A DNA stretch of 64,000 bases from Antedon bifida (Eukaryota; Echinodermata; Crinoidea; Comatulida; Antedonidae): the NCBI GenBank assembly GCA_963402885.1, contig OY727097.1:17546001-17610000 (forward strand), read 5' to 3'. The position numbers and the translations under genes are program-made. Under the pieces are notes generated by a model. The model did not search any database. It was given only the letters and a program-made list of their open reading frames with translations, and was not told the origin of the DNA. This document shows positions 38,891-64,000 of the stretch, piece after piece. Each line of letters starts with the position of its first letter. Position 1 is the first letter of the stretch.

Positions 38891-40390
38891 AACCGACTAT
38901 TCTTATTTTATAATAATTATTATATTTATTATTTTATAATGGGTAGCCAAAGGGGCACACGCTACCTGTATTGGATAGTAAATTAGGCCCAAAATAGTTC
39001 ATACTGGCTACAGTACTGACTATATAGCCAATGCTATATAACCAGATATAGTCCAGGTCCTACTAGTTAGAGGCTAGGCACCTAGGGCACCCTGCTGGTC
39101 ATCTCGTAACCAGACCCTGACACCAACCTACCCCACCAACCTACCCCCTGCCTGCCAACCTACCCACTTACTTGTATGGCCTAGGCTAGCTAGCTAGGCT
39201 GGATATTTAATCAGACACAAGGATAGAAGACTTTTGAACAGCACAAACATATAATAATTAATAGGCCTATATTATAATATAAGAATATTAAAACAAAAAT
39301 GTATACTTATCTTGCTTTGGCCCACAAATGCATGGTCTAACTTAATAGATTTAGGCCTAGCACCTAGCCTGATTGTATTACTGTCCGCGCGACGGGCCGG
39401 TCGGTAGTAAGACTTGGCTAACTTGTACCAAATAACGGAGCATATTTTTTTCAAAAAAAAACATTGATCTTTACTGAAGCAGCATTCTAAATTTCATAAA
39501 AAAACTTAAAATAAATCAAAGCTAAAATTACACGTATTTAGATATTTGCATTCTTCGCAAACATACAATGTTACGAATGATTGTACTTCAAGAATTACCC
39601 GAACAAGTTCAATACTACCGCCATAATACTCATACTACTACTACTCGTCTGGTTGCCGGCGTACAGTTTAACGTAAGACGAATGGAGTTATACAGTTTAC
39701 AGTACCCAGACATTTAACAGCGCAACATGCGTGATATGGATAGGCCTGTTAGCGTCACTTAACACTAAACAGCCATGCAGTTTATTGTCTCTAGACACAG
39801 TACAGTACGAGAATCGGGTGTGTAGGGAGCATTATTAAGTAAAATGACAAAGTACTGTAACCGAATAAGTACTGTAAGTAAGTTGCAGGCAGTGAGTTTT
39901 ATTTAAGAAAAGGTTATTACAAATAATGCGTTACCTGTAAAGGCCAACATAGTTATTGCAATGAATAAGTTGGTTTAATAATGTAAATCACATACCTGTG
40001 TCTGTCAACCTTTTCGATATACGGAGATTCACTGAAGATCTGACGAACGCATTCTCTGACATTCCTCATGTTATACATCTCCGGACAAATTGTATCAATA
40101 ATATGCAGCACGTTTAGAGAACCGCTGGTAGTATCTGGACAACGGAGAAGAGCCGCCACAACAAGTTCTTGAAATGATAGAGGCATCATCAATGTATCGG
40201 TGAGATCGGAGAACATCATGCAAGACATATTTAGGTTACTCGTAGTTCGGATAATAGTCGAATGGTAGCTTTTCAGATAATTCAGTTGACTTTAATAGTT
40301 GAATGCCGTAGAAATCAAAGGCACACCATTTTAAAAATGTCTTTGTTGGTTAGATATTAATGAAAGAACAAGAAAAACACAATAGAAACA

Positions 40391-40711: not shown

Positions 40712-40877
40712 ATACTTACCTGGCACAGGAGCGACTTTGATCAGGAAGGAATGTCCTCCCAAGATGAGGCCTCGGCATTGCACACACGGCTGCGGTTGAC
40801 CCTTACGATTCCCCCAAACGTGGGGAACTCGGGTGTATAATTTATGGTAGCGGGGGACTGCGTTCGCGCTAACCCCC
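40712..40877 (+). ncRNA. U1: U1 spliceosomal RNA, copy 1
   Basis: U1 small nuclear RNA, which pairs with 5' splice sites in the U1 snRNP. The 166 bases begin ATACTTACCTGGCAC, the invariant recognition end. Stem-loop I follows with GATCAGGAAG in its loop. Stem-loop II has ATTGCAC, the U1A protein site. Stem-loop III contains CCCCCAAACGTGGGG, the Sm site is TAATTTATGG, and stem-loop IV is GGGGGACTGCGTTCGCGCTAACCCCC by position 140-166. Upstream are TATAAATA at -76 and CCAAT at -38. A possible 3' box, CATTAATATTAGATA, lies at 40885-40899. This copy carries A at nucleotide 94. Loop I differs from the usual GATCAYGAAG by G at 33. Confidence 0.96.
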
Positions 40878-41236
40878 AATTCGACATTAATATTAGATAG
40901 CCTATGCAGTTCACGATAATCGTTAGGTTAATTAAGAACACTTGATATATAACTATTTATGGTTACATTATCTGTTAAGAAACTTTGTTGGTTTGTAACT
41001 ATATTTATTTTTCCTTTACAACTGTTGGTATAGAATATTAACATGCATTGAACGCTTCATGATTATTTCGAAGAATAATATCAATTATAGGCTCAAACTC
41101 TAGATTAAACAACATAAAGTAGTCTATTATAGAACTTATACTTATTTAAATACTTTTATTACTTTCTGTTAAACGATAATTATATTTCATTTACAATATG
41201 TATTAAATGCTATTTAATTATAGATATTTTATTTAT

Positions 41237-42055
41237 TTACATGTCATATTGTTCTTGTCGAAGAAGTTTGGCGATAGAAAACCTTTGACATTTTACACTC
41301 AATGATGAAGACGTAGTATGTACACCGTTTAATTGTTCTGTTTCAGTTTGTAAGCAATGTTGTTTTGCGCCATTTCTATCGCTGCAATTCAAGTGGTTTA
41401 TGGATTGGAGATCTAGCTCCATCGGTGCATTGCGTGATATCGTATACAGGTATGCCACCCACTCGTTGTAAGTGTTGGATGTTACGTGGTACTTCGTTCC
41501 ATTCACTATAATGATATATGGCAGATAGTATTGCCAACCGTCTGTCAATCGATACCTATAACAAGAAAACAAACTTATTTATTAATAATGATCATGTAAA
41601 TAAATAATAAGGATGATAATCAATGGTATTTCTGTTAAAATTACAAATGTAGGGAGCATTATTAAGTAAAATGACAAAGTACTGTAACCGAATAAGTACT
41701 GTAAGTAAGTTGCAGGCAGTGAGTTTTATTTAAGAAAAGGTTATTACAAATAATGCGTTACCTGTAAAGGCCAACATAGTTATTGCAATGAATAAGTTGG
41801 TTTAATAATGTAAATCACATACCTGTGTCTGTCAACCTTTTCGATATACGGAGATTCACTGAAGATCTGACGAACGCATTCTCTGACATTCCTCATGTTA
41901 TACATCTCCGGACAAATTGTATCAATAATATGCAGCACGTTTAGAGAACCGCTGGTAGTATCTGGACAACGGAGAAGAGCCGCCACAACAAGTTCTTGAA
42001 ATGATAGAGGCATCATCAATGTATCGGTGAGATCGGAGAACATCATGCAAGACAT
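41237..42055 (-). CDS. Unrecognised 183-residue protein, array gene 1
   Basis: Exon 1 is 42055-41823 (77 codons plus two bases), donor GTATGT. The intron is 267 bases. Exon 2 is 41555-41237, acceptor TTGTTATAG; the join makes Arg78. No signal peptide or membrane segment is evident. Residues about 17-84 (LSFQELVVAALLRC ... NVRECVRQIFSESPY ... KVDRHRYRL) suggest three helices followed by a wing, as in winged-helix domains; this is weak. The rest is polar with several cysteines. The stop codon overlaps an AATAAATAAA run, so the 3' UTR would be very short. The ATG lies 483 bases from the divergent U1 gene. This copy has Met51 and Ala141. Without splicing, the frame ends 13 residues after Arg78. 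I do not recognise the family. An open frame across all complete copies argues that it is or was a real gene, though the copies are young. Confidence 0.6.
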
Positions 42056-42538
42056 ATTTAGGTTACTCGTAGTTCGGATAATAGTCGAATGGTAGCTTTT
42101 CAGATAATTCAGTTGACTTTAATAGTTGAATGCCGTAGAAATCAAAGGCACACCATTTTAAAAATGTCTTTGTTGGTTAGATATTAATGAAAGAACAAGA
42201 AAAACACAATAGAAACAATGGCTGCGTTGAGTAACGCGGGCGCAATCGCAACAATAAACAATTTAAAAACAATAGAAACGGTAAAGCAAAGAAAGCGGAT
42301 GACACTTTAATGATTTGTCGGTATGAAATTAAAACTTCCAATACTATTACAAACAACTAGCATTTAAATTTAGTTGATATAAAATATGTTTGAGAATAGA
42401 CTACAGTTACTGTAAGTTACAGAAGGTTATATTACCATTTACATTATGACACTGTAACTGAATATAAATACCAGAATGACACTTGTACAACAATACCAAG
42501 CCAATATCTCAGCTAAGAACGTGGTATGGCGTTTAAGC
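42056..42538. promoter_or_regulatory. Head-to-head spacer between the protein gene and U1 (one of 13)
   Basis: Probably a shared bidirectional promoter: the protein gene starts leftward at 42055 and U1 rightward at 42539. On the U1 side are TATAAATA near -76 and CCAAT near -38; the proximal sequence element expected near -55 cannot be identified without a consensus for this species. The spacer also holds the 30-codon frame. The same layout recurs before every U1 copy. Confidence 0.5.
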
Positions 42539-42704
42539 ATACTTACCTGGCACAGGAGCGACTTTGATCAGGAAGGAATGTCCTCCCAAGATGAGGCCTC
42601 GGCATTGCACACACGGCTGCGGTTGACCCTTACGATTCCCCCAAACGTGGGGAACTCGGGTGTATAATTTATGGTAGCGGGGGACTGCGTTCGCGCTAAC
42701 CCCC
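42539..42704 (+). ncRNA. U1: U1 spliceosomal RNA, copy 2
   Basis: Full-length, with the A94 variant like copies 1 and 5. The preceding spacer is identical in order to copy 1. Confidence 0.96.
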
Positions 42705-43063
42705 AATTCGACATTAATATTAGATAGCCTATGCAGTTCACGATAATCGTTAGGTTAATTAAGAACACTTGATATATAACTATTTATGGTTACATTATCT
42801 GTTAAGAAACTTTGTTGGTTTGTAACTATATTTATTTTTCCTTTACAACTGTTGGTATAGAATATTAACATGCATTGAACGCTTCATGATTATTTCGAAG
42901 AATAATATCAATTATAGGCTCAAACTCTAGATTAAACAACATAAAGTAGTCTATTATAGAACTTATACTTATTTAAATACTTTTATTACTTTCTGTTAAA
43001 CGATAATTATATTTCATTTACAATATGTATTAAATGCTATTTAATTATAGATATTTTATTTAT

Positions 43064-43885
43064 TTACATGTCATATTGTTCTTGTCGAAGAAGTTTGGCG
43101 ATAGAAAACCTTTGACATTTTACACTCAATGATGAAGACGTAGTATGTACACCGTTTAATTGTTCTGTTTCAGTTTGTAAGCAATGTTGTTTTGCGCCAT
43201 TTCTATCGCTGCAATTCAAGTGGTTTATGGATTGGAGATCTAGCTCCATCGGTGCATTGCGTGATATCGTATACAGGTATGCCACCCACTCGTTGTAAGT
43301 GTTGGATGTTACGTGGTACTTCGTTCCATTCACTATAATGATATATGGCAGATAGTATTGCCAACCGTCTGTCAATCGATACCTATAACAAGAAAACAAA
43401 CTTATTTATTAATAATGATGATCATGTAAATAAATAATAAGGATGATAATCAATGGTATTTCTGTTAAAATTACAAATGTAGGGAGCATTATTAAGTAAA
43501 ATGACAAAGTACTGTAACCGAATAAGTACTGTAAGTAAGTTGCAGGCAGTGAGTTTTATTTAAGAAAAGGTTATTACAAATAATGCGTTACCTGTAAAGG
43601 CCAACATAGTTATTGCAATGAATAAGTTGGTTTAATAATGTAAATCACATACCTGTGTCTGTCAACCTTTTCGATATACGGAGATTCACTGAAGATCTGA
43701 CGAACGCATTCTCTGACATTCCTCATGTTATACTTCTCCGGACAAATTGTATCAATAATATGCAGCACGTTTAGAGAACCGCTGGTAGTATCTGGACAAC
43801 GGAGAAGAGCCGCCACAACAAGTTCTTGAAATGATAGAGGCATCATCAATGTATCGGTGAGATCGGAGAACATCATGCAAGACAT
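43064..43885 (-). CDS. 183-residue protein, array gene 2
   Basis: Exons 43885-43653 and 43382-43064; intron 270 bases. First copy with Lys51 in place of Met51; Pro31 and Ala141 as in gene 1. Confidence 0.6.
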
Positions 43886-44368
43886 ATTTAGGTTACTCGT
43901 CGTTCGGATAATAGTCGAATGGTAGCTTTTCAGATAATTCAGTTGACTTTAATAGTTGAATGCCGTAGAAATCAAAGGCACACCATTTTAAAAATGTCTT
44001 TGTTGGTTAGATATTAATGAAAGAACAAGAAAAACACAATAGAAACAATGGCTGCGTTGAGTAACGCGGGCGCAATCGCAACAATAAACAATTTTAAAAC
44101 AATAGAAACGGTAAAGCAAAGAAAGCGGATGACACTTTAATGATTTGTCGGTATGAAATTAAAACTTCCAATACTATTACAAACAACTAGCATTTAAATT
44201 TAGTTGATATAAAATATGTTTGAGAATAGACTACAGTTACTGTAAGTTACAGAAGGTTATATTACCATTTACATTATGACACTGTAACTGAATATAAATA
44301 CCAGAATGACACTTGTACAACAATACCAAGCCAATATCTCAGCTAAGAACGTGGTATGGCGTTTAAGC

Positions 44369-44534
44369 ATACTTACCTGGCACAGGAGCGACTTTGATCA
44401 GGAAGGAATGTCCTCCCAAGATGAGGCCTCGGCATTGCACACACGGCTGCGGTTGACCCTTGCGATTCCCCCAAACGTGGGGAACTCGGGTGTATAATTT
44501 ATGGTAGCGGGGGACTGCGTTCGCGCTAACCCCC
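44369..44534 (+). ncRNA. U1: U1 spliceosomal RNA, copy 3
   Basis: Full-length, with G94, the form also seen in vertebrate U1 at the equivalent base. Confidence 0.96.
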
Positions 44535-44893
44535 AATTCGACATTAATATTAGATAGCCTATGCAGTTCACGATAATCGTTAGGTTAATTAAGAACACTT
44601 GATATATAACTATTTATGGTTACATTATCTGTTAAGAAACTTTGTTGGTTTGTAACTATATTTATTTTTCCTTTACAACTGTTGGTATAGAATATTAACA
44701 TGCATTGAACGCTTCATGATTATTTCGAAGAATAATATCAATTATAGGCTCAAACTCTAGATTAAACAACATAAAGTAGTCTATTATAGAACTTATACTT
44801 ATTTAAATACTTTTATTACTTTCTGTTAAACGATAATTATATTTCATTTACAATATGTATTAAATGCTATTTAATTATAGATATTTTATTTAT

Positions 44894-45715
44894 TTACATG
44901 TCATATTGTTCTTGTCGAAGAAGTTTGGCGATAGAAAACCTTTGACATTTTACACTCAATGATGAAGACGTAGTATGTACACCGTTTAATTGTTCTGTTT
45001 CAGTTTGTAAGCAATGTTGTTTTGCGCCATTTCTATCGCTGCAATTCAAGTGGTTTATGGATTGGAGATCTAGCTCCATCGGTGCATTGCGTGATATCGT
45101 ATACAGGTATGCCACCCACTCGTTGTAAGTGTTGGATGTTACGTGGTACTTCGTTCCATTCACTATAATGATATATGGCAGATAGTATTGCCAACCGTCT
45201 GTCAATCGATACCTATAACAAGAAAACAAACTTATTTATTAATAATGATGATCATGTAAATAAATAATAAGGATGATAATCAATGGTATTTCTGTTAAAA
45301 TTACAAATGTAGGGAGCATTATTAAGTAAAATGACAAAGTACTGTAACCGAATAAGTACTGTAAGTAAGTTGCAGGCAGTGAGTTTTATTTAAGAAAAGG
45401 TTATTACAAATAATGCGTTACCTGTAAAGGCCAACATAGTTATTGCAATGAATAAGTTGGTTTAATAATGTAAATCACATACCTGTGTCTGTCAACCTTT
45501 TCGATATACGGAGATTCACTGAAGATCTGACGAACGCATTCTCTGACATTCCTCATGTTATACTTCTCCGGACAAATTGTATCAATAATATGCAGCACGT
45601 TTAGAGAACCGCTGGTAGTATCTGGACAACGGAGAAGAGCCGCCACAACAAGTTCTTGAAATGATAGAGGCATCATCAATGTATCGGTGAGATCGGAGAA
45701 CATCATGCAAGACAT
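44894..45715 (-). CDS. 183-residue protein, array gene 3
   Basis: Exons 45715-45483 and 45212-44894. Lys51, Ala141; protein identical to gene 2. Confidence 0.6.
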
Positions 45716-46198
45716 ATTTAGGTTACTCGTCGTTCGGATAATAGTCGAATGGTAGCTTTTCAGATAATTCAGTTGACTTTAATAGTTGAATGCCGTAGAA
45801 ATCAAAGGCACACCATTTTAAAAATGTCTTTGTTGGTTAGATATTAATGAAAGAACAAGAAAAACACAATAGAAACAATGGCTGCGTTGAGTAACGCGGG
45901 CGCAATCGCAACAATAAACAATTTTAAAACAATAGAAACGGTAAAGCAAAGAAAGCGGATGACACTTTAATGATTTGTCGGTATGAAATTAAAACTTCCA
46001 ATACTATTACAAACAACTAGCATTTAAATTTAGTTGATATAAAATATGTTTGAGAATAGACTACAGTTACTGTAAGTTACAGAAGGTTATATTACCATTT
46101 ACATTATGACACTGTAACTGAATATAAATACCAGAATGACACTTGTACAACAATACCAAGCCAATATCTCAGCTAAGAACGTGGTATGGCGTTTAAGC

Positions 46199-46364
46199 AT
46201 ACTTACCTGGCACAGGAGCGACTTTGATCAGGAAGGAATGTCCTCCCAAGATGAGGCCTCGGCATTGCACACACGGCTGCGGTTGACCCTTGCGATTCCC
46301 CCAAACGTGGGGAACTCGGGTGTATAATTTATGGTAGCGGGGGACTGCGTTCGCGCTAACCCCC
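46199..46364 (+). ncRNA. U1: U1 spliceosomal RNA, copy 4
   Basis: Full-length, G94 form; same as copy 3. Confidence 0.96.
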
Positions 46365-46723
46365 AATTCGACATTAATATTAGATAGCCTATGCAGTTCA
46401 CGATAATCGTTAGGTTAATTAAGAACACTTGATATATAACTATTTATGGTTACATTATCTGTTAAGAAACTTTGTTGGTTTGTAACTATATTTATTTTTC
46501 CTTTACAACTGTTGGTATAGAATATTAACATGCATTGAACGCTTCATGATTATTTCGAAGAATAATATCAATTATAGGCTCAAACTCTAGATTAAACAAC
46601 ATAAAGTAGTCTATTATAGAACTTATACTTATTTAAATACTTTTATTACTTTCTGTTAAACGATAATTATATTTCATTTACAATATGTATTAAATGCTAT
46701 TTAATTATAGATATTTTATTTAT

Positions 46724-47542
46724 TTACATGTCATATTGTTCTTGTCGAAGAAGTTTGGCGATAGAAAACCTTTGACATTTTACACTCAATGATGAAGACG
46801 TAGTATGTACACCGTTTAATTGTTCTGTTTCAGTTTGTAAGCAATGTTGTTTTGCGCCATTTCTATCGCTGCAATTCAAGTGGTTTATGGATTGGAGATC
46901 TAGCTCCATCGGTGCATTGCGTGATATCGTATACAGGTATGCCACCCACTCGTTGTAAGTGTTGGATGTTACGTGGTACTTCGTTCCATTCACTATAATG
47001 ATATATGGCAGATAGTATTGCCAACCGTCTGTCAATCGATACCTATAACAAGAAAACAAACTTATTTATTAATAATGATCATGTAAATAAATAATAAGGA
47101 TGATAATCAATGGTATTTCTGTTAAAATTACAAATGTAGGGAGCATTATTAAGTAAAATGACAAAGTACTGTAACCGAATAAGTACTGTAAGTAAGTTGC
47201 AGGCAGTGAGTTTTATTTAAGAAAAGGTTATTACAAATAATGCGTTACCTGTAAAGGCCAACATAGTTATTGCAATGAATAAGTTGGTTTAATAATGTAA
47301 ATCACATACCTGTGTCTGTCAACCTTTTCGATATACGGAGATTCACTGAAGATCTGACGAACGCATTCTCTGACATTCCTCATGTTATACATCTCCGGAC
47401 AAATTGTATCAATAATATGCAGCACGTTTAGAGAACCGCTGGTAGTATCTGGACAACGGAGAAGAGCCGCCACAACAAGTTCTTGAAATGATAGAGGCAT
47501 CATCAATGTATCGGTGAGATCGGAGAACATCATGCAAGACAT
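46724..47542 (-). CDS. 183-residue protein, array gene 4
   Basis: Exons 47542-47310 and 47042-46724; intron 267 bases because of the missing GAT also seen in gene 1. Met51 returns, linked with A94 in the neighbouring U1 copy 5. Confidence 0.6.
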
Positions 47543-48025
47543 ATTTAGGTTACTCGTAGTTCGGATAATAGTCGAATGGTAGCTTTTCAGATAATTCAGT
47601 TGACTTTAATAGTTGAATGCCGTAGAAATCAAAGGCACACCATTTTAAAAATGTCTTTGTTGGTTAGATATTAATGAAAGAACAAGAAAAACACAATAGA
47701 AACAATGGCTGCGTTGAGTAACGCGGGCGCAATCGCAACAATAAACAATTTAAAAACAATAGAAACGGTAAAGCAAAGAAAGCGGATGACACTTTAATGA
47801 TTTGTCGGTATGAAATTAAAACTTCCAATACTATTACAAACAACTAGCATTTAAATTTAGTTGATATAAAATATGTTTGAGAATAGACTACAGTTACTGT
47901 AAGTTACAGAAGGTTATATTACCATTTACATTATGACACTGTAACTGAATATAAATACCAGAATGACACTTGTACAACAATACCAAGCCAATATCTCAGC
48001 TAAGAACGTGGTATGGCGTTTAAGC

Positions 48026-48191
48026 ATACTTACCTGGCACAGGAGCGACTTTGATCAGGAAGGAATGTCCTCCCAAGATGAGGCCTCGGCATTGCACACA
48101 CGGCTGCGGTTGACCCTTACGATTCCCCCAAACGTGGGGAACTCGGGTGTATAATTTATGGTAGCGGGGGACTGCGTTCGCGCTAACCCCC
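48026..48191 (+). ncRNA. U1: U1 spliceosomal RNA, copy 5
   Basis: Full-length, A94 form. Together with gene 4 this unit matches units 1 and 2 rather than its neighbours. Confidence 0.96.
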
Positions 48192-48550
48192 AATTCGACA
48201 TTAATATTAGATAGCCTATGCAGTTCACGATAATCGTTAGGTTAATTAAGAACACTTGATATATAACTATTTATGGTTACATTATCTGTTAAGAAACTTT
48301 GTTGGTTTGTAACTATATTTATTTTTCCTTTACAACTGTTGGTATAGAATATTAACATGCATTGAACGCTTCATGATTATTTCGAAGAATAATATCAATT
48401 ATAGGCTCAAACTCTAGATTAAACAACATAAAGTAGTCTATTATAGAACTTATACTTATTTAAATACTTTTATTACTTTCTGTTAAACGATAATTATATT
48501 TCATTTACAATATGTATTAAATGCTATTTAATTATAGATATTTTATTTAT

Positions 48551-49372
48551 TTACATGTCATATTGATCTTGTCGAAGAAGTTTGGCGATAGAAAACCTTT
48601 GACATTTTACACTCAATGATGAAGACGTAGTATGTACACCGTTTAATTGTTCTGTTTCAGTTTGTAAGCAATGTTGTTTTTCGCCATTTCTATCGCTGCA
48701 ATTCAAGTGGTTTATGGATTGGAGATCTAGCTCCATCGGTGCATTGCGTGATATCGTATACAGGTATGCCACCCACTCGTTGTAAGTGTTGGATGTTACG
48801 TGGTACTTCGTTCCATTCACTATAATGATATATGGCAGATAGTATTGCCAACCGTCTGTCAATCGATACCTATAACAAGAAAACAAACTTATTTATTAAT
48901 AATGATGATCATGTAAATAAATAATAAGGATGATAATCAATGGTATTTCTGTTAAAATTACAAATGTAGGGAGCATTATTAAGTAAAATGACAAAGTACT
49001 GTAACCGAATAAGTACTGTAAGTAAGTTGCAGGCAGTGAGTTTTATTTAAGAAAAGGTTATTACAAATAATGCGTTACCTGTAAAGGCCAACATAGTTAT
49101 TGCAATGAATAAGTTGGTTTAATAATGTAAATCACATACCTGTGTCTGTCAACCTTTTCGATATACGGAGATTCACTGAAGATCTGACGAACGCATTCTC
49201 TGACATTCCTCATGTTATACTTCTCCGGACAAATTGTATCAATAATATGCAGCACGTTTAGAGAACCGCTGGTAGTATCTGTACAACGGAGAAGAGCCGC
49301 CACAACAAGTTCTTGAAATGATAGAGGCATCATCAATGTATCGGTGAGATCGGAGAACATCATGCAAGACAT
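48551..49372 (-). CDS. 183-residue protein, array gene 5
   Basis: Exons 49372-49140 and 48869-48551. First copy with Glu141; also Thr31, Lys51 and Asp179 (unique). Confidence 0.6.
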
Positions 49373-49856
49373 ATTTAGGTTACTCGTAGTTCGGATAATA
49401 GTCGAATGGTAGCTTTTCAGATAATTCAGTTGACTTTAATAGTTGAATGCCGTAGAAATCAAAGGCACACCATTTTAAAAATGTCTTTGTTGGTTAGATA
49501 TTAATGAAAGAACAAGAAAAACACAATAGAAACAATGGCTGCGTTGAGTAACGCGGGCGCAATCGCAACAATAAACAATTTTAAAACAATAGAAACGGTA
49601 AAGCAAAGAAAGCGGATGACACTTTAATGATTTGTCGGTATGAAATTAAAACTTCCAATACTATTAAAAACAACTAGCATTTAAATTTAGTTGATATGAA
49701 AATATGTTTGAGAATAGACTACAGTTACTGTAAGTTACAGAAGATTATATTACCATTTACATTATGACACTGTAACTGAATATAAATACCAGAATGACAC
49801 TTGTACAACAATACCAAGCCAATATCTCAGCTAAGAACGTGGTATGGCGTTTAAGC

Positions 49857-50022
49857 ATACTTACCTGGCACAGGAGCGACTTTGATCAGGAAGGAATGTC
49901 CTCCCAAGATGAGGCCTCGGCATTGCACACACGGCTGCGGTTGACCCTTGCGATTCCCCCAAACGTGGGGAACTCGGGTGTATAATTTATGGTAGCGGGG
50001 GACTGCGTTCGCGCTAACCCCC
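49857..50022 (+). ncRNA. U1: U1 spliceosomal RNA, copy 6
   Basis: Full-length, G94 form. From this unit on, the spacer reads GATATGAAAA in place of GATATAAAA. Confidence 0.96.
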
Positions 50023-50381
50023 AATTCGACATTAATATTAGATAGCCTATGCAGTTCACGATAATCGTTAGGTTAATTAAGAACACTTGATATATAACTA
50101 TTTATGGTTACATTATCTGTTAAGAAACTTTGTTGGTTTGTAACTATATCTATTTTTCCTTTACAACTGTTGGTATAGAATATTAACATGCATTGAACGC
50201 TTCATGATTATTTCGAAGAATAATATCAATTATAGGCTCAAACTCTAGATTAAACAACATAAAGTAGTCTATTATAGAACTTATACTTATTTAAATACTT
50301 TTATTACTTTCTGTTAAACGATAATTATATTTCATTTACAATATGTATTAAATGCTATTTAATTATAGATATTTTATTTAT

Positions 50382-51203
50382 TTACATGTCATATTGTTCT
50401 TGTCGAAGAAGTTTGGCGATAGAAAACCTTTGACATTTTACACTCAATGATGAAGACGTAGTATGTACACCGTTTAATTGTTCTGTTTCAGTTTGTAAGC
50501 AATGTTGTTTTTCGCCATTTCTATCGCTGCAATTCAAGTGGTTTATGGATTGGAAATCTAGCTCCATCGGTGCATTGCGTGATATCGTATACAGGTATGC
50601 CACCCACTCGTTGTAAGTGTTGGATGTTACGTGGTACTTCGTTCCATTCACTATAATGATATATGGCAGATAGTATTGCCAACCGTCTGTCAATCGATAC
50701 CTATAACAAGAAAACAAACTTATTTATTAATAATGATGATCATGTAAATAAATAATAAGGATGATAATCAATGGTATTTCTGTTAAAATTACAAATGTAG
50801 GGAGCATTATTAAGTAAAATGACAAAGTACTGTAACCGAATAAGTACTGTAAGTAAGTTGCAGGCAGTGAGTTTTATTTAAGAAAAGGTTATTACAAATA
50901 ATGCGTTACCTGTAAAGGCCAACATAGTTATTGCAATGAATAAGTTGGTTTAATAATGTAAATCACATACCTGTGTCTGTCAACCTTTTCGATATACGGT
51001 GATTCACTGAAGATCTGACGAACGCATTCTCTGACATTCCTCATGTTATACTTCTCCGGACAAATTGTATCAATAATATGCAGCACGTTTAGAGAACCGC
51101 TGGTAGTATCTGTACAACGGAGAAGAGCCGCCACAACAAGTTCTTGAAATGATAGAGGCATCATCAATGTATCGGTGAGATCGGACAACATCATGCAAGA
51201 CAT
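50382..51203 (-). CDS. 183-residue protein, array gene 6
   Basis: Exons 51203-50971 and 50700-50382. Leu6, Thr31, Lys51, Phe127, Glu141. Confidence 0.6.
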
Positions 51204-51687
51204 ATTTAGGTTACTCGTAGTTCGGATAATAGTCGAATGGTAGCTTTTCAGATAATTCAGTTGACTTTAATAGTTGAATGCCGTAGAAATCAAAGGCACA
51301 CCATTTTAAAAATGTCTTTGTTGGTTAGATATTAATGAAAGAACAAGAAAAACACAATAGAAACAATGGCTGCGTTGAGTAACGCGGGCGCAATCGCAAC
51401 AATAAACAATTTTAAAACAATAGAAACGGTAAAGCAAAGAAAGCGGATGACACTTTAATGATTTGTCGGTATGAAATTAAAACTTCCAATACTATTACAA
51501 ACAACTAGCATTTAAATTTAGTTGATATGAAAATATGTTTGAGAATAGACTACAGTTACTGTAAGTTACAGAAGATTATATTACCATTTACATTATGACA
51601 CTGTAACTGAATATAAATACCAGAATGACACTTGTACAACAATACCAAGCCAATATCTCAGCTAAGAACGTGGTATGGCGTTTAAGC

Positions 51688-51866
51688 ATACTTACCTGGC
51701 ACAGGAGCGACTTTGATCAGGAAGGAATGTCCTCCCAAAATGAGGCCTCGGCATTGCACACACGGCTGCGGTTGACCCTTGCGGTTGACCCTTGCGATTC
51801 CCCCAAACGTGGGGAACTCGGGTGTATAATTTATGGTAGCGGGGGACTGCGTTCGCGCTAACCCCC
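51688..51866 (+). ncRNA. U1: U1 spliceosomal RNA variant, copy 7, with internal duplication
   Basis: 179 bases instead of 166 because GCGGTTGACCCTT is tandemly duplicated at the junction of stem-loops II and III. It also has A at nucleotide 52. The 5' end, Sm site and stem-loop IV are intact. The four-way junction would be distorted, so it is either a variant or a pseudogene. Confidence 0.85.
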
Positions 51867-52221
51867 AATTCGACATTAATATTAGATAGCCTATGCAGTT
51901 CACGATAATCGTTAGGTTAATTAAGAACACTTGATATATAACTATTTATGGTTACATTATCTGTTAAGAAACTTTGTTGGTTTGTAACTATATTTTTCCT
52001 TTACCACTGTTGGTATAGAATATTAACATGCATTGAACGCTTCATGATTATTTCGAAGAATAATATCAATTATAGGCTCAAACTCTAGATTAAACAACAT
52101 AAAGTAGTCTATTATAGAACTTATACTTATTTAAATACTTTTATTACTTTCTGTTAAACGATAATTATATTTCATTTACAATATGTATTAAATGCTATTT
52201 AATTATAGATATTTTATTTAT

Positions 52222-53043
52222 TTACATGTCATATTGTTCTTGTCGAAGAAGTTTGGCGATAGAAAACCTTTGACATTTTACACTCAATGATGAAGACGTA
52301 GTATGTACACCGTTTAATTGTTCTGTTTCAGTTTGTAAGCAATGTTGTTTTTCGCCATTTCTATCGCTGCAATTCAAGTGGTTTATGGATTGGAAATCTA
52401 GCTCCATCGGTGCATTGCGTGATATCGTATACAGGTATGCCACCCACTCGTTGTAAGTGTTGGATGTTACGTGGTACTTCGTTCCATTCACTATAATGAT
52501 ATATGGCAGATAGTATTGCCAACCGTCTGTCAATCGATACCTATAACAAGAAAACAAACTTATTTATTAATAATGATGATCATGTAAATAAATAATAAGG
52601 ATGATAATCAATGGTATTTCTGTTAAAATTACAAATGTAGGGAGCATTATTAAGTAAAATGACAAAGTACTGTAACCGAATAAGTACTGTAAGTAAGTTG
52701 CAGGCAGTGAGTTTTATTTAAGAAAAGGTTATTACAAATAATGCGTTACCTGTAAAGGCCAACATAGTTATTGCAATGAATAAGTTGGTTTAATAATGTA
52801 AATCACATACCTGTGTCTGTCAACCTTTTCGATATACGGAGATTCACTGAAGATCTGACGAACGCATTCTCTGACATTCCTCATGTTATACTTCTCCGGA
52901 CAAATTGTATCAATAATATGCAGCACGTTTAGAGAACCGCTGGTAGTATCTGGACAACGGAGAAGAGCCGCCACAACAAGTTCTTGAAATGATAGAGGCA
53001 TCATCAATGTATCGGTGAGATCGGAGAACATCATGCAAGACAT
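52222..53043 (-). CDS. 183-residue protein, array gene 7
   Basis: Exons 53043-52811 and 52540-52222. Phe6, Pro31, Lys51, Phe127, Glu141. The spacer between this gene's 3' end and U1 copy 7 lacks four bases (TATT), as in gene 10. Confidence 0.6.
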
Positions 53044-53527
53044 ATTTAGGTTACTCGTAGTTCGGATAATAGTCGAATGGTAGCTTTTCAGATAATTCAG
53101 TTGACTTTAATAGTTGAATGCCGTAGAAATCAAAGGCACACCATTTTAAAAATGTCTTTGTTGGTTAGATATTAATGAAAGAACAAGAAAAACACAATAG
53201 AAACAATGGCTGCGTTGAGTAACGCGGGCGCAATCGCAACAATAAACAATTTTAAAACAATAGAAACGGTAAAGCAAAGAAAGCGGATGACACTTTAATG
53301 ATTTGTCGGTATGAAATTAAAACTTCCAATACTATTACAAACAACTAGCATTTAAATTTAGTTGATATGAAAATTTGTTTGAGAATAGACTACAGTTACT
53401 GTAAGTTACAGAAGATTATATTACCATTTACATTATGACACTGTAACTGAATATAAATACCAGAATGACACTTGTACAACAATACCAAGCCAATATCTCA
53501 GCTAAGAACGTGGTATGGCGTTTAAGC

Positions 53528-53693
53528 ATACTTACCTGGCACAGGAGCGACTTTGATCAGGAAGGAATGTCCTCCCAAGATGAGGCCTCGGCATTGCACA
53601 CACGGCTGCGGTTGACCCTTGCGATTCCCCCAAACGTGGGGAACTCGGGTGTATAATTTATGGTAGCGGGGGACTGCGTTCGCGCTAACCCCC
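53528..53693 (+). ncRNA. U1: U1 spliceosomal RNA, copy 8
   Basis: Full-length, G94 form, no internal difference from copy 3. Confidence 0.96.
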
Positions 53694-54052
53694 AATTCGA
53701 CATTAATATTAGATAGCCTATGCAGTTCACGATAATCGTTAGGTTAATTAAGAACACTTGATATATAACTATTTATGGTTACATTATCTGTTAAGAAACT
53801 TTGTTGGTTTGTAACTATATTTATTTTTCCTTTACAACTTTTGGTATAGAATATTAACATGCATTGAACGCTTCATGATTATTTCGAAGAATAATATCAA
53901 TTATAGGCTCAAACTCTAGATTAAACAACATAAAGTAGTCTATTATAGAACTTATACTTATTTAAATACTTTTATTACTTTCTGTTAAACGATAATTATA
54001 TTTCATTTACAATATGTATTAAATGCTATTTAATTATAGATATTTTATTTAT

Positions 54053-54874
54053 TTACATGTCATATTGTTCTTGTCGAAGAAGTTTGGCGATAGAAAACCT
54101 TTGACATTTTACACTCAATGATGAAGACGTAGTATGTACACCGTTTAATTGTTCTGTTTCAGTTTGTAAGCAATGTTGTTTTTCGCCATTTCTATCGCTG
54201 CAATTCAAGTGGTTTATGGATTGGAGATCTAGCTCCATCGGTGCATTGCGTGATATCGTATACAGGTATGCCACCCACTCGTTGTAAGTGTTGGATGTTA
54301 CGTGGTACTTCGTTCCATTCACTATAATGATATATGGCAGATAGTATTGCCAACCGTCTGTCAATCGATACCTATAACAAGAAAACAAACTTATTTATTA
54401 ATAATGATGATCATGTAAATAAATAATAAGGATGATAATCAATGGTATTTCTGTTAAAATTACAAATGTAGGGAGCATTATTAAGTAAAATGACAAAGTA
54501 CTGTAACCGAATAAGTACTGTAAGTAAGTTGCAGGCAGTGAGTTTTATTTAAGAAAAGGTTATTACAAATAATGCGTTACCTGTAAAGGCCAACATAGTT
54601 ATTGCAATGAATAAGTTGGTTTAATAATGTAAATCACATACCTGTGTCTGTCAACCTTTTCGATATACGGAGATTCACTGAAGATCTGACGAACGCATTC
54701 TCTGACATTCCTCATGTTATACTTCTCCGGACAAATTGTATCAATAATATGCAGCACGTTTAGAGAACCGCTGGTAGTATCTGGACAACGGAGAAGAGCC
54801 GCCACAACAAGTTCTTGAAATGATAGAGGCATCATCAATGTATCGGTGAGATCGGAGAACATCATGCAAGACAT
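54053..54874 (-). CDS. 183-residue protein, array gene 8
   Basis: Exons 54874-54642 and 54371-54053. Pro31, Lys51, Leu127, Glu141. Confidence 0.6.
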
Positions 54875-55358
54875 ATTTAGGTTACTCGTAGTTCGGATAA
54901 TAGTCGAATGGTAGCTTTTCAGATAATTCAGTTGACTTTAATAGTTGAATGCCGTAGAAATCAAAGGCACACCATTTTAAAAATGTCTTTGTTGGTTAGA
55001 TATTAATGAAAGAACAAGAAAAACACAATAGAAACAATGGCTGCGTTGAGTAACGCGGGCGCAATCGCAACAATAAACAATTTTAAAACAATAGAAACGG
55101 TAAAGCAAAGAAAGCGGATGACACTTTAATGATTTGTCGGTATGAAATTAAAACTTCCAATACTATTACAAACAACTAGCATTTAAATTTAGTTGATATG
55201 AAAATATGTTTGAGAATAGACTACAGTTACTGTAAGTTACAGAAGATTATATTACCATTTACATTATGACACTGTAACTGAATATAAATACCAGAATGAC
55301 ACTTGTACAACAATACCAAGCCAATATCTCAGCTAAGAACGTGGTATGGCGTTTAAGC

Positions 55359-55524
55359 ATACTTACCTGGCACAGGAGCGACTTTGATCAGGAAGGAATG
55401 TCCTCCCAAGATGAGGCCTCGGCATTGCACACACGGCTGCGGTTGACCCTTGCGATTCCCCCAAACGTGGGGAACTCGGGTGTATAATTTATGGTAGCGG
55501 GGGACTGCGTTCGCGCTAACCCCC
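55359..55524 (+). ncRNA. U1: U1 spliceosomal RNA, copy 9
   Basis: Full-length, G94 form. Confidence 0.96.
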
Positions 55525-55883
55525 AATTCGACATTAATATTAGATAGCCTATGCAGTTCACGATAATCGTTAGGTTAATTAAGAACACTTGATATATAAC
55601 TATTTATGGTTACATTATCTGTTAAGAAACTTTGTTGGTTTGTAACTATATTTATTTTTCCTTTACAACTTTTGGTATAGAATATTAACATGCATTGAAC
55701 GCTTCATGATTATTTCGAAGAATAATATCAATTATAGGCTCAAACTCTAGATTAAACAACATAAAGTAGTCTATTATAGAACTTATACTTATTTAAATAC
55801 TTTTATTACTTTCTGTTAAACGATAATTATATTTCATTTACAATATGTATTAAATGCTATTTAATTATAGATTTTTTATTTAT

Positions 55884-56705
55884 TTACATGTCATATTGTT
55901 CTTGTCGAAGAAGTTTGGCGATAGAAAACCTTTGACATTTTACACTCAATGATGAAGACGTAGTATGTACACCGTTTAATTGTTCTGTTTCAGTTTGTAA
56001 GCAATGTTGTTTTTCGCCATTTCTATCGCTGCAATTCAAGTGGTTTATGGATTGGAGATCTAGCTCCATCGGTGCATTGCGTGATATCGTATACAGGTAT
56101 GCCACCCACTCGTTGTAAGTGTTGGATGTTACGTGGTACTTCGTTCCATTCACTATAATGATATATGGCAGATAGTATTGCCAACCGTCTGTCAATCGAT
56201 ACCTATAACAAGAAAACAAACTTATTTATTAATAATGATGATCATGTAAATAAATAATAAGGATGATAATCAATGGTATTTCTGTTAAAATTACAAATGT
56301 AGGGAGCATTATTAAGTAAAATGACAAAGTACTGTAACCGAATAAGTACTGTAAGTAAGTTGCAGGCAGTGAGTTTTATTTAAGAAAAGGTTATTACAAA
56401 TAATGCGTTACCTGTAAAGGCCAACATAGTTATTGCAATGAATAAGTTGGTTTAATAATGTAAATCACATACCTGTGTCTGTCAAACTTTTCGATATACG
56501 GTGATTCACTGAAGATCTGACGAACGCATTCTCTGACATTCCTCATGTTATACTTCTCCGGACAAATTGTATCAATAATATGCAGCACGTTTAGAGAACC
56601 GCTGGTAGTATCTGTACAACGGAGAAGAGCCGCCACAACAAGTTCTTGAAATGATAGAGGCATCATCAATGTATCGGTGAGATCGGACAACATCATGCAA
56701 GACAT
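55884..56705 (-). CDS. 183-residue protein, array gene 9
   Basis: Exons 56705-56473 and 56202-55884. Leu6, Thr31, Lys51 and a unique Phe74 (Val elsewhere). Exon 1 otherwise matches gene 6, three units away. Confidence 0.6.
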
Positions 56706-57189
56706 ATTTAGGTTACTCGTAGTTCGGATAATAGTCGAATGGTAGCTTTTCAGATAATTCAGTTGACTTTAATAGTTGAATGCCGTAGAAATCAAAGGCA
56801 CACCATTTTAAAAATGTCTTTGTTGGTTAGATATTAATGAAAGAACAAGAAAAACACAATAGAAACAATGGCTGCGTTGAGTAACGCGGGCGCAATCGCA
56901 ACAATAAACAATTTTAAAACAATAGAAACGGTAAAGCAAAGAAAGCGGATGACACTTTAATGATTTGTCGGTATGAAATTAAAACTTCCAATACTATTAC
57001 AAACAACTAGCATTTAAATTTAGTTGATATGAAAATATGTTTGAGAATAGACTACAGTTACTGTAAGTTACAGAAGATTATATTACCATTTACATTATGA
57101 CACTGTAACTGAATATAAATACCAGAATGACACTTGTACAACAATACCAAGCCAATATCTCAGCTAAGAACGTGGTATGGCGTTTAAGC

Positions 57190-57355
57190 ATACTTACCTG
57201 GCACAGGAGCGACTTTGATCAGGAAGGAATGTCCTCCCAAAATGAGGCCTCGGCATTGCACACACGGCTGCGGTTGACCCTTGCGATTCCCCCAAACGTG
57301 GGGAACTCGGGTGTATAATTTATGGTAGCGGGGGACTGCGTTCGCGCTAACCCCC
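57190..57355 (+). ncRNA. U1: U1 spliceosomal RNA, copy 10
   Basis: Full-length, with A at nucleotide 52 as in copy 7 but without the 13-base duplication. Confidence 0.95.
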
Positions 57356-57710
57356 AATTCGACATTAATATTAGATAGCCTATGCAGTTCACGATAATCG
57401 TTAGGTTAATTAAGAACACTTGATATATAACTATTTATGGTTACATTATCTGTTAAGAAACTTTGTTGGTTTGTAACTATATTTTTCCTTTACCACTGTT
57501 GGTATAGAATATTAACATGCATTGAACGCTTCATGATTATTTCGAAGAATAATATCAATTATAGGCTCAAACTCTAGATTAAACAACATAAAGTAGTCTA
57601 TTATAGAACTTATACTTATTTAAATACTTTTATTACTTTCTGTTAAACGATAATTATATTTCATTTACAATATGTATTAAATGCTATTTAATTATAGATA
57701 TTTTATTTAT

Positions 57711-58532
57711 TTACATGTCATATTGTTCTTGTCGAAGAAGTTTGGCGATAGAAAACCTTTGACATTTTACACTCAATGATGAAGACGTAGTATGTACACC
57801 GTTTAATTGTTCTGTTTCAGTTTGTAAGCAATGTTGTTTTTCGCCATTTCTATCGCTGCAATTCAAGTGGTTTATGGATTGGAAATCTAGCTCCATCGGT
57901 GCATTGCGTGATATCGTATACAGGTATGCCACCCACTCGTTGTAAGTGTTGGATGTTACGTGGTACTTCGTTCCATTCACTATAATGATATATGGCAGAT
58001 AGTATTGCCAACCGTCTGTCAATCGATACCTATAACAAGAAAACAAACTTATTTATTAATAATGATGATCATGTAAATAAATAATAAGGATGATAATCAA
58101 TGGTATTTCTGTTAAAATTACAAATGTAGGGAGCATTATTAAGTAAAATGACAAAGTACTGTAACCGAATAAGTACTGTAAGTAAGTTGCAGGCAGTGAG
58201 TTTTATTTAAGAAAAGGTTATTACAAATAATGCGTTACCTGTAAAGGCCAACATAGTTATTGCAATGAATAAGTTGGTTTAATAATGTAAATCACATACC
58301 TGTGTCTGTCAACCTTTTCGATATACGGAGATTCACTGAAGATCTGACGAACGCATTCTCTGACATTCCTCATGTTATACTTCTCCGGACAAATTGTATC
58401 AATAATATGCAGCACGTTTAGAGAACCGCTGGTAGTATCTGGACAACGGAGAAGAGCCGCCACAACAAGTTCTTGAAATGATAGAGGCATCATCAATGTA
58501 TCGGTGAGATCGGAGAACATCATGCAAGACAT
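57711..58532 (-). CDS. 183-residue protein, array gene 10
   Basis: Exons 58532-58300 and 58029-57711. Pro31, Lys51, Phe127, Glu141; matches gene 7, three units away, including the four-base spacer deletion. Confidence 0.6.
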
Positions 58533-59016
58533 ATTTAGGTTACTCGTAGTTCGGATAATAGTCGAATGGTAGCTTTTCAGATAATTCAGTTGACTTTAAT
58601 AGTTGAATGCCGTAGAAATCAAAGGCACACCATTTTAAAAATGTCTTTGTTGGTTAGATATTAATGAAAGAACAAGAAAAACACAATAGAAACAATGGCT
58701 GCGTTGAGTAACGCGGGCGCAATCGCAACAATAAACAATTTTAAAACAATAGAAACGGTAAAGCAAAGAAAGCGGATGACACTTTAATGATTTGTCGGTA
58801 TGAAATTAAAACTTCCAATACTATTACAAACAACTAGCATTTAAATTTAGTTGATATGAAAATATGTTTGAGAATAGACTACAGTTACTGTAAGTTACAG
58901 AAGATTATATTACCATTTACATTATGACACTGTAACTGAATATAAATACCAGAATGACACTCGTACAACAATACCAAGCCACTATCTCAGCTAAGAACGT
59001 GGTATGGCGTTTAAGC

Positions 59017-59182
59017 ATACTTACCTGGCACAGGAGCGACTTTGATCAGGAAGGAATGTCCTCCCAAGATGAGGCCTCGGCATTGCACACACGGCTGCGG
59101 TTGACCCTTGCGATTCCCCCAAACGTGGGGAACTCGGGTGTATAATTTATGGTAGCGGGGGACTGCGTTCGCGCTAACCCCC
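59017..59182 (+). ncRNA. U1: U1 spliceosomal RNA, copy 11
   Basis: Full-length, G94 form. The upstream spacer has two private changes (CACTCGTACA and CCACTATCTC). Confidence 0.96.
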
Positions 59183-59541
59183 AATTCGACATTAATATTA
59201 GATAGCCTATGCAGTTCACGATAATCGTTAGGTTAATTAAGAACACTTGATATATAACTATTTATGGTTACATTATCTGTTAAGAAACTTTGTTGGTTTG
59301 TAACTATATTTATTTTTCCTTTACAACTTTTGGTATAGAATATTAACATGCATTGAACGCTTCATGATTATTTCGAAGAATAATATCAATTATAGGCTCA
59401 AACTCTAGATTAAACAACATAAAGTAGTCTATTATAGAACTTATACTTATTTAAATACTTTTATTACTTTCTGTTAAACGATAATTATATTTCATTTACA
59501 ATATGTATTAAATGCTATTTAATTATAGATATTTTATTTAT

Positions 59542-60363
59542 TTACATGTCATATTGTTCTTGTCGAAGAAGTTTGGCGATAGAAAACCTTTGACATTTTA
59601 CACTCAATGATGAAGACGTAGTATGTACACCGTTTAATTGTTCTGTTTCAGTTTGTAAGCAATGTTGTTTTTCGCCATTTCTATCGCTGCAATTCAAGTG
59701 GTTTATGGATTGGAGATCTAGCTCCATCGGTGCATTGCGTGATATCGTATACAGGTATGCCACCCACTCGTTGTAAGTGTTGGATGTTACGTGGTACTTC
59801 GTTCCATTCACTATAATGATATATGGCAGATAGTATTGCCAACCGTCTGTCAATCGATACCTATAACAAGAAAACAAACTTATTTATTAATAATGATGAT
59901 CATGTAAATAAATAATAAGGATGATAATCAATGGTATTTCTGTTAAAATTACAAATGTAGGGAGCATTATTAAGTAAAATGACAAAGTACTGTAACCGAA
60001 TAAGTACTGTAAGTAAGTTGCAGGCAGTGAGTTTTATTTAAGAAAAGGTTATTACAAATAATGCGTTACCTGTAAAGGCCAACATAGTTATTGCAATGAA
60101 TAAGTTGGTTTAATAATGTAAATCACATACCTGTGTCTGTCAACCTTTTCGATATACGGAGATTCACTGAAGATCTGACGAACGCATTCTCTGACATTCC
60201 TCATGTTATACTTCTCCGGACAAATTGTATCAATAATATGCAGCACGTTTAGAGAACCGCTGGTAGTAGCTGGACAACGGAGAAGAGCCGCCACAACAAG
60301 TTCTTGAAATGATAGAGGCATCATCAATGTATCGGTGAGATCGGAGAACATCATGCAAGACAT
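59542..60363 (-). CDS. 183-residue protein, array gene 11
   Basis: Exons 60363-60131 and 59860-59542. Unique Ala32 (Asp elsewhere); Lys51, Glu141. Confidence 0.6.
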
Positions 60364-60847
60364 ATTTAGGTTACTCGTAGTTCGGATAATAGTCGAATGG
60401 TAGCTTTTCAGATAATTCAGTTGACTTTAATAGTTGAATGCCGTAAAAATCAAAGGCACACCATTTTAAAAATGTCTTTGTTGGTTAGATATTAATGAAA
60501 GAACAAGAAAAACACAATAGAAACAATGGCTGCGTTGAGTAACGCGGGCGCAATCGCAACAATAAACAATTTTAAAACAATAGAAACGGTAAAGCAAAGA
60601 AAGCGGATGACACTTTAATGATTTGTCGGTATGAAATTAAAACTTCCAATACTATTACAAACAACTAGCATTTAAATTTAGTTGATATGAAAATATGTTT
60701 GAGAATAGACTACAGTTACTGTAAGTTACAGAAGATTATATTACCATTTACATTATGACACTGTAACTGAATATAAATACCAGAATGACACTTGTACAAC
60801 AATACCAAGCCAATATCTCAGCTAAGAACGTGGTATGGCGTTTAAGC

Positions 60848-61013
60848 ATACTTACCTGGCACAGGAGCGACTTTGATCAGGAAGGAATGTCCTCCCAAGA
60901 TGAGGCCTCGGCATTGCACACACGGCTGCGGTTGACCCTTGCGATTCCCCCAAACGTGGGGAACTCGGGTGTATAATTTATGGTAGCGGGGGACTGCGTT
61001 CGCGCTAACCCCC
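60848..61013 (+). ncRNA. U1: U1 spliceosomal RNA, copy 12
   Basis: Full-length, G94 form. Confidence 0.96.
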
Positions 61014-61372
61014 AATTCGACATTAATATTAGATAGCCTATGCAGTTCACGATAATCGTTAGGTTAATTAAGAACACTTGATATATAACTATTTATGGTT
61101 ACATTATCTGTTAAGAAACTTTGTTGGTTTGTAACTATATTTATTTTTCCTTTACAACTGTTGGTATAGAATATTAACATGCATTGAACGCTTCATGATT
61201 ATTTCGAAGAATAATATCAATTATAGGCTCAAACTCTAGATTAAACAACATAAAGTAGTCTATTATAGAACTTATACTTATTTAAATACTTTTATTACTT
61301 TCTGTTAAACGATAATTATATTTCATTTACAATATGTATTAAATGCTATTTAATTATAGATATTTTATTTAT

Positions 61373-62194
61373 TTACATGTCATATTGTTCTTGTCGAAGA
61401 AGTTTGGCGATAGAAAACCTTTGACATTTTACACTCAATGATGAAGACGTAGTATGTACACCGTTTAATTGTTCTGTTTCAGTTTGTAAGCAATGTTGTT
61501 TTTCGCCATTTCTATCGCTGCAATTCAAGTGGTTTATGGATTGGAGATCTAGCTCCATCGGTGCATTGCGTGATATCGTATACAGGTATGCCACCCACTC
61601 GTTGTAAGTGTTGGATGTTACGTGGTACTTCGTTCCATTCACTATAATGATATATGGCAGATAGTATTGCCAACCGTCTGTCAATCGATACCTATAACAA
61701 GAAAACAAACTTATTTATTAATAATGATGATCATGTAAATAAATAATAAGGATGATAATCAATGGTATTTCTGTTAAAATTACAAATGTAGGGAGCATTA
61801 TTAAGTAAAATGACAAAGTACTGTAACCGAATAAGTACTGTAAGTAAGTTGCAGGCAGTGAGTTTTATTTAAGAAAAGGTTATTACAAATAATGCGTTAC
61901 CTGTAAAGGCCAACATAGTTATTGCAATGAATAAGTTGGTTTAATAATGTAAATCACATACCTGTGTCTGTCAACCTTTTCGATATACGGAGATTCACTG
62001 AAGATCTGACGAACGCATTCTCTGACATTCCTCATGTTATACTTCTCCGGACAAATTGTATCAATAATATGCAGCACGTTTAGAGAACCGCTGGTAGTAT
62101 CTGGACAACGGAGAAGAGCCGCCACAACAAGTTCTTGAAATGATAGAGGCATCATCAATGTATCGGTGAGATCGGAGAACATCATGCAAGACAT
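61373..62194 (-). CDS. 183-residue protein, array gene 12
   Basis: Exons 62194-61962 and 61691-61373. Pro31, Lys51, Leu127, Glu141; same protein as gene 8. Confidence 0.6.
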
Positions 62195-62678
62195 ATTTAG
62201 GTTACTCGTAGTTCGGATAATAGTCGAATGGTAGCTTTTCAGATAATTCAGTTGACTTTAATAGTTGAATGCCGTAAAAATCAAAGGCACACCATTTTAA
62301 AAATGTCTTTGTTGGTTAGATATTAATGAAAGAACAAGAAAAACACAATAGAAACAATGGCTGCGTTGAGTAACGCGGGCGCAATCGCAACAATAAACAA
62401 TTTTAAAACAATAGAAACGGTAAAGCAAAGAAAGCGGATGACACTTTAATGATTTGTCGGTATGAAATTAAAACTTCCAATACTATTACAAACAACTAGC
62501 ATTTAAATTTAGTTGATATGAAAATATGTTTGAGAATAGACTACAGTTACTGTAAGTTACAGAAGATTATATTACCATTTACATTATGACACTGTAACTG
62601 AATATAAATACCAGAATGACACTTGTACAACAATACCAAGCCAATATCTCAGCTAAGAACGTGGTATGGCGTTTAAGC

Positions 62679-62844
62679 ATACTTACCTGGCACAGGAGCG
62701 ACTTTGATCAGGAAGGAATGTCCTCCCAAGATGAGGCCTCGGCATTGCACACACGGCTGCGGTTGACCCTTGCGATTCCCCCAAACGTGGGGAACTCGGG
62801 TGTATAATTTATGGTAGCGGGGGACTGCGTTCGCGCTAACCCCC
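62679..62844 (+). ncRNA. U1: U1 spliceosomal RNA, copy 13
   Basis: Full-length, G94 form; last U1 in the window. Confidence 0.96.
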
Positions 62845-63203
62845 AATTCGACATTAATATTAGATAGCCTATGCAGTTCACGATAATCGTTAGGTTAATT
62901 AAGAACACTTGATATATAACTATTTATGGTTACATTATCTGTTAAGAAACTTTGTTGGTTTGTAACTATATTTATTTTTCCTTTACAACTGTTGGTATAG
63001 AATATTAACATGCATTGAACGCTTCATGATTATTTCGAAGAATAATATCAATTATAGGCTCAAACTCTAGATTAAACAACATAAAGTAGTCTATTATAGA
63101 ACTTATACTTATTTAAATACTTTTATTACTTTCTGTTAAACGATAATTATATTTCATTTACAATATGTATTAAATGCTATTTAATTATAGATATTTTATT
63201 TAT

Positions 63204-64000
63204 TTACATGTCATATTGTTCTTGTCGAAGAAGTTTGGCGATAGAAAACCTTTGACATTTTACACTCAATGATGAAGACGTAGTATGTACACCGTTTAAT
63301 TGTTCTGTTTCAGTTTGTAAGCAATGTTGTTTTTCGCCATTTCTATCGCTGCAATTCAAGTGGTTTATGGATTGGAGATCTAGCTCCATCGGTGCATTGC
63401 GTGATATCGTATACAGGTATGCCACCCACTCGTTGTAAGTGTTGGATGTTACGTGGTACTTCGTTCCATTCACTATAATGATATATGGCAGATAGTATTG
63501 CCAACCGTCTGTCAATCGATACCTATAACAAGAAAACAAACTTATTTATTAATAATGATGATCATGTAAATAAATAATAAGGATGATAATCAATGGTATT
63601 TCTGTTAAAATTACAAATGTAGGGAGCATTATTAAGTAAAATGACAAAGTACTGTAACCGAATAAGTACTGTAAGTAAGTTGCAGGCAGTGAGTTTTATT
63701 TAAGAAAAGGTTATTACAAATAATGCGTTACCTGTAAAGGCCAACATAGTTATTGCAATGAATAAGTTGGTTTAATAATGTAAATCACATACCTGTGTCT
63801 GTCAACCTTTTCGATATACGGTGATTCACTGAAGATCTGACGAACGCATTCTCTGACATTCCTCATGTTATACTTCTCCGGACAAATTGTATCAATAATA
63901 TGCAGCACGTTTAGAGAACCGCTGGTAGTATCTGTACAACGGAGAAGAGCCGCCACAACAAGTTCTTGAAATGATAGAGGCATCATCAATGTATCGGTGA
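63204..64000 (-). CDS. 183-residue protein, array gene 13 (start beyond the window)
   Basis: Exon 2 is 63522-63204. Exon 1 runs from 63793 to the window edge, so about the first dozen residues are missing. Thr31, Lys51, Leu127, Glu141. Confidence 0.55.

Follow-up and report, generated by a model that had tools for sequence, protein, structure and literature searches.

A 64,000-nt stretch of the genome of the crinoid Antedon bifida (assembly GCA_963402885.1, 315.6 Mb in 27 contigs; contig OY727097.1, C10:17546001-17610000; hereafter the window) contains part of a tandem array of U1 small nuclear RNA (snRNA) genes, and the repeat unit of this array also carries a two-exon protein gene in divergent orientation. 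We examined 264 kb, consisting of the window and the next 200 kb, and region positions are counted from the window start. Fourteen matches to the Rfam U1 family (RF00003) in the window reach the gathering score (103.8-128.9 bits, against a cut-off of 69.5): 13 of them lie at 40712-62845 (113.7-128.9 bits) and one lies at 34241 (103.8 bits). The 13 copies, those of units 2 to 14, are on the plus strand at 40712-40878, 42539-42705, 44369-44535, 46199-46365, 48026-48192, 49857-50023, 51688-51867 (unit 8, in which 13 nt are duplicated internally), 53528-53694, 55359-55525, 57190-57356, 59017-59183, 60848-61014 and 62679-62845. They are spaced 1827-1840 bp apart, corresponding to a repeat unit of ~1.83 kb, and the full units in the window are 98.6-99.9% identical to the unit at 42539. 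With its head-to-tail, near-identical units in many copies, the locus belongs to the class of tandem, homogenised snRNA arrays. The 5' end through which U1 pairs with 5' splice sites (ATACTTACCTG) is present in 13 of the 14 window copies and is missing from the copy of unit 1 at the array edge (34241-34405, plus strand), where 14 nt are absent, the first 10 nt of U1 among them; this copy is probably non-functional.

The linked gene lies on the minus strand and is made up of an exon 1 of 233 nt, a GT..AG intron of 267 or 270 nt and an exon 2 of 319 nt, together 183 codons. In the gene at 41237-42055, exon 1 spans 42055-41823, the intron 41822-41556 and exon 2 41555-41237; further complete copies are at 43064-43885, 44894-45715, 46724-47542, 48551-49372, 50382-51203, 52222-53043, 54053-54874, 55884-56705, 57711-58532, 59542-60363 and 61373-62194, and that of unit 14 (63204-64000) is cut by the window end, with the start of its exon 1 in the next stretch (L001). 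All 12 complete genes are open over 183 residues, and they encode eight distinct proteins. In the one unit examined for it, AATAAA directly follows the stop codon (43051-43063, minus strand), and we take this to be the likely poly(A) signal. An earlier note, made from the letters of this stretch alone, had described a ~1.83-kb unit pairing U1 with a two-exon gene for 183 residues across ~483 bases, and this arrangement is borne out by 13 U1 copies with a full 5' end, 12 complete genes and a 13th that is truncated by the window; the intron at 41556-41822 and the U1 start at 42539 are as it gave them. The gene ATG and the start of the next U1 are arranged head-to-head, and the distance between them is 483-484 nt in each of the 12 complete window units (for example 43886-44368).

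The same note had counted 13 units; the 13 are there, one further U1 copy (34241) lies to the left of the range it gave, and the array is much larger. The part in the window (33975-64000, plus strand) continues to region position 198414 (C10:17744414), which adds ~134 kb past the window end for a total of ~164 kb. It contains 86 copies of U1, every one of them on the plus strand. Over the whole array there are 92 copies of the linked gene, full or partial, a number obtained from 95 exon 2 matches after subtraction of three: one relic (216672) that lies outside the array, and two matches that are the second pieces of genes that have been rearranged. Four intervals between U1 genes contain two genes each (region positions 77958, 83055, 93627 and 100555), and in two of the four the second gene has a stop at R177. 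Of the 85 intervals between U1 starts, 68 have distinct sequences. We also note higher-order duplication within the array: at region positions 120922-131267, and again at 156869-166906, a three-unit block is followed by an identical three-unit block.

Relatives and predicted fold of the linked protein

Two homologues of the linked protein, P0001 (51% identity over 92% of the query) and P0002 (47% over 98%), are the sole relatives found among 5.8 billion proteins. One is the predicted protein LOC117100230 of the crinoid Anneissia japonica and the other is unnamed. Similarity to the LOC117100230 family is colinear over the full length and includes a C-terminal LS-KC..FSI..L motif, and both homologues align through the splice junction (E values of 7.7e-42 and 7e-51). 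Because of this last observation the linked gene, as judged from sequence comparison, is real and is a member of a small protein family whose sole named member is from a crinoid. Neither P0001 nor the array unit had a match in the viral and phage collections searched.

For the N-terminal part of the linked protein a winged helix is predicted, and the nearest folds are forkhead domains (best Foldseek E value 0.039). Both the predicted fold and the order of its elements resemble those of forkhead (FOX) proteins, but identity is 8-23% in the listed structural alignments with FOX chains, none of the three family members has a Pfam forkhead match at E ≤ 10 (with filters that drop most matches above 0.1), and no relative of the C-terminal part is recognised beyond the three-protein family. 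Three further observations weigh against a firm assignment: the mean predicted local distance difference test score (pLDDT) of the model is 47.5, none of 482 Foldseek matches has an E value of 0.001 or better, and in P0001 the third helix is four residues short. Other Pfam and Protein Data Bank (PDB) sequence matches, of which the best was PMG with an E value of 0.0032 in one of the three members and the next had E values of 0.089 and above, were read as chance.

Decay and variation among array copies

Sixty-five of the 92 gene copies are intact and encode 18 distinct proteins; the other 27 are broken or partial. The latter comprise the edge copy, one copy truncated at its 3' end, seven in which the start of exon 1 is deleted, three with R177 and two with S68 changed to a stop, six frameshifted near codon 66 (part of exon 2 also being absent from two of these), one with a larger deletion in exon 1, two without a start codon (one with a further 20-nt deletion), two with a rearranged exon 2 and two fragments. 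Among the U1 genes, 83 of 86 have neither an indel nor a 5' loss, the three affected being the edge copy and those at 51688 and 74354, and 69 of 86 are identical to the consensus. The contrast in breakage (27/92 versus 3/86, Fisher p 2e-6) is suggestive at most, since the copies cannot be treated as independent and the coding region has three times the length of U1. The earlier expectation that the copy numbers of U1 and the linked gene would be locked together fails in the strict sense, given the difference in intact copies and the four intervals with two genes.

Variation among the copies was analysed with the rearranged units at 188707 and 193812 left out (4 of 108 aligned pieces), as these were the source of most of the 69 initial exon 2 variants. 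Among 70 full-length genes there were 15 nonsynonymous and five synonymous codon-level events as well as two stops, and, with weights taken from the non-coding spectrum, the nonsynonymous share expected under neutrality comes to 0.762 (p 0.80, two-sided). Counting single bases instead gives 20 nonsynonymous and six synonymous changes and one stop, but this tally counts a two-base change in codon 3 twice and reads the S68 stop as S68Y, and the codon tally was preferred. The proportion of variable sites is also similar in coding (27/552) and non-coding (43/1112) sequence (p 0.36). Thus, purifying selection on the linked protein is not visible among array copies and its coding changes look neutral in a test that is low in power. 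The gene cannot be called dispensable on this basis, because U1 itself, with 5 variable sites in 167, likewise shows no excess constraint relative to non-coding sequence (p 0.83).

The 483-484-nt spacer should hold the promoters of both genes. In the seven units that have lost the start of exon 1 together with the gene-side part of the spacer, 293 nt remain before a consensus-identical U1, and in the two rearranged units (188707 and 193812) 116 nt remain, again before a consensus-identical U1. The seven units, in which a consensus U1 is kept behind a spacer without its gene side, hint at separate promoters for U1 and the linked gene, where the earlier note had considered a shared one; if the U1 copies behind shortened spacers are active, U1 would need just the U1-side part.

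Array edges, a second U1 locus and other features

The apparent gap between the U1 copies at 34241 and 40712 corresponds to a single unit split by an insertion of 4636 bp (35185-39820) in the intron of its gene. The inserted element has terminal inverted repeats (CACCCGATTCTCGTAC...) of ~175 bp that are 75% identical and is flanked by a 7-bp target duplication, TGTAGGG; no further copies were found in the 264 kb examined. Exon 2 of the interrupted gene, with a stop at codon 177, is at 34764-35082 and exon 1, beyond the insertion, is at 39996-40228 (both on the minus strand). Within the element, a weak match to 5S rRNA (38799-38891, minus strand; 33.3 bits, short of the 38-bit cut-off) perhaps represents a 5S-derived short interspersed element.

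The left edge of the array is at ~33975, and the promoter stretch of the edge unit (33975-34248) is 88.4% identical to those of the other units. The edge adjoins a repeat at 33747-33979 that recurs at 10927-11188 (81.7% identity) and at 517-695. About 18 kb beyond the right edge, and without U1, there is a decayed relic of the 3' end of the linked gene and its flank (region position 216518-216752, C10:17762518-17762752, L016:2518-2752; 86.8% identity, stop present).

A U1 family search of the genome, in which 42 of 3548 candidates were scored so that the locus count is a lower bound, placed 41 of the 42 inside the array and one outside it, at C10:21830379-21830544 (L021:1501-1666). This second U1 scores 138.1 bits, above the array copies, and is 90% identical to array U1. 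No linked gene was found within ~1.5 kb on either side (3.2 kb examined), and a search for a promoter element common to array U1 and the second U1 returned similarity at chance level, reached by 223 of 300 shuffles. The region upstream is unrelated to the array, and an additional segment at L021:2605-2665 matches U1 over its 3' third. The second U1 may be a dispersed gene that is active at other times, or may have arisen as a retro-copy.

Elsewhere in the window, a large palindrome occupies 20006-27006, with arms of up to 435 nt, 92-99% complementarity and a centre near 23.4 kb, and there is a smaller inverted repeat at 28189-29948, in the arms of which short tandem repeats recur at spacings of 40 and 52 nt. 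Open frames on the minus strand at 12796-14403 have what we take to be an F5/8-type-C or fucolectin-like look, and overlapping minus-strand frames at 903-1492 presumably resemble pieces of a non-LTR (long terminal repeat) reverse transcriptase.

Origin and meaning of the joint unit

We consider it probable that a crinoid protein gene hitchhikes in the repeat unit of this U1 array, with demand for U1 setting the size of the array. The protein gene would have been present in the spacer, or have entered it, before amplification and would then have been multiplied jointly with U1, as unequal exchange and gene conversion amplified and homogenised the entire 1.83-kb unit. With array size most likely set by U1 demand and the protein gene amplified along with it, gene copy number would track that demand and exchange events, not the gene's own need. 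As the presence of dozens of copies would make selection on any single one weak, gene copies would decay and decayed copies would spread through the array, with the gene probably still transcribed from some copies and the two genes presumably using separate promoters in the spacer. With many of its copies broken, the linked gene resembles a passenger more than a partner kept at an exact dose relative to U1. Two points count against this reading: the 65 intact copies, 37 of which encode one identical protein, are also what would be expected of a functional gene, and U1, the supposed driver, shows no more constraint than non-coding sequence.

A co-dosed partnership is a tentative alternative. 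The protein would then be needed in bulk whenever array U1 is, as in oocytes or early embryos, for instance, and selection would keep the joint unit so that both genes multiply and are activated jointly from its one 484-nt control region. The head-to-head layout of all 12 complete window units and the intact state of 65 of 92 copies of a conserved protein are in its favour, the second U1 without a neighbouring gene is compatible with a pairing specific to the array, and sea urchin U1 isoforms are described as being under developmental regulation (PMC4291461). However, a partnership of this kind is difficult to square with the 27 broken or partial genes, with four U1 intervals that hold two genes, one of them broken in two of the four, and with coding variation that looks neutral. 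The broken copies and the neutral-looking variation would agree with dead cargo, that is, with array genes that are untranscribed duplicates of a functional gene elsewhere and whose frames are open merely through recent amplification, and the U1-less relic beyond the right edge shows that such copies rot. Yet 65 copies retain the start codon, the splice sites and the full frame, and AATAAA follows the stop in the unit examined, and we regard this explanation as unlikely. More doubtful still is a reading in which every unit would supply the regulator of the array, with the forkhead-like protein acting as a switch through binding to the U1 spacer or to array chromatin; a tandem snRNA locus would then possess a self-encoded, self-amplifying transcription factor. 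We give almost no credence to a chance open frame, ruled out by the two homologues that align through the splice junction, or to an assembly artefact, as near-identical units might in principle be mis-assembled but 68 of 85 intervals are distinct and the 264 kb contain no N bases.

Tandem snRNA arrays are usually pictured as RNA genes alone, and we know of no protein gene in the sea-urchin U1 repeat unit. The tandem U1 genes of sea urchins, reportedly described by Santiago and Marzluff in 1989 and by Nash et al. in 1989 (both cited in PMC4291461), resemble the present array in their echinoderm setting and in their many near-identical copies, and here too at least one further U1 of different sequence lies outside the array. 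Linkage of 5S rRNA with U1 has been reported for a crustacean repeat (Pelliccia et al., 2001, cited in PMC3123226). Two gene types reportedly share one tandem unit there as well, but both partners are RNA genes, whereas one partner here is a spliced protein gene. The repeats of the D4Z4/DUX4 macrosatellite likewise form a long array and code for a protein that has DNA-binding domains, as may be the case here, but the D4Z4 unit contains no snRNA and the domains of DUX4 are homeodomains, not a winged helix. We found no report of a protein gene within an snRNA repeat unit in the open literature, covered through titles and abstract openings and with most early snRNA papers outside that coverage. 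Linked RNA-gene repeats and protein-coding macrosatellites are already known kinds; the joining of an snRNA gene with a spliced protein gene in so short a unit did not appear in that coverage.

Nearly every unit of this array carries a spliced protein gene that is otherwise represented by a single crinoid protein and an unnamed sequence, and this genome thus has ~90 copies of it. The array offers a natural experiment on the fate of a protein gene whose copy number is set by a neighbour, and should its mRNA prove to be produced alongside array U1, the dosage of the snRNA would be coupled to a putative DNA-binding protein.

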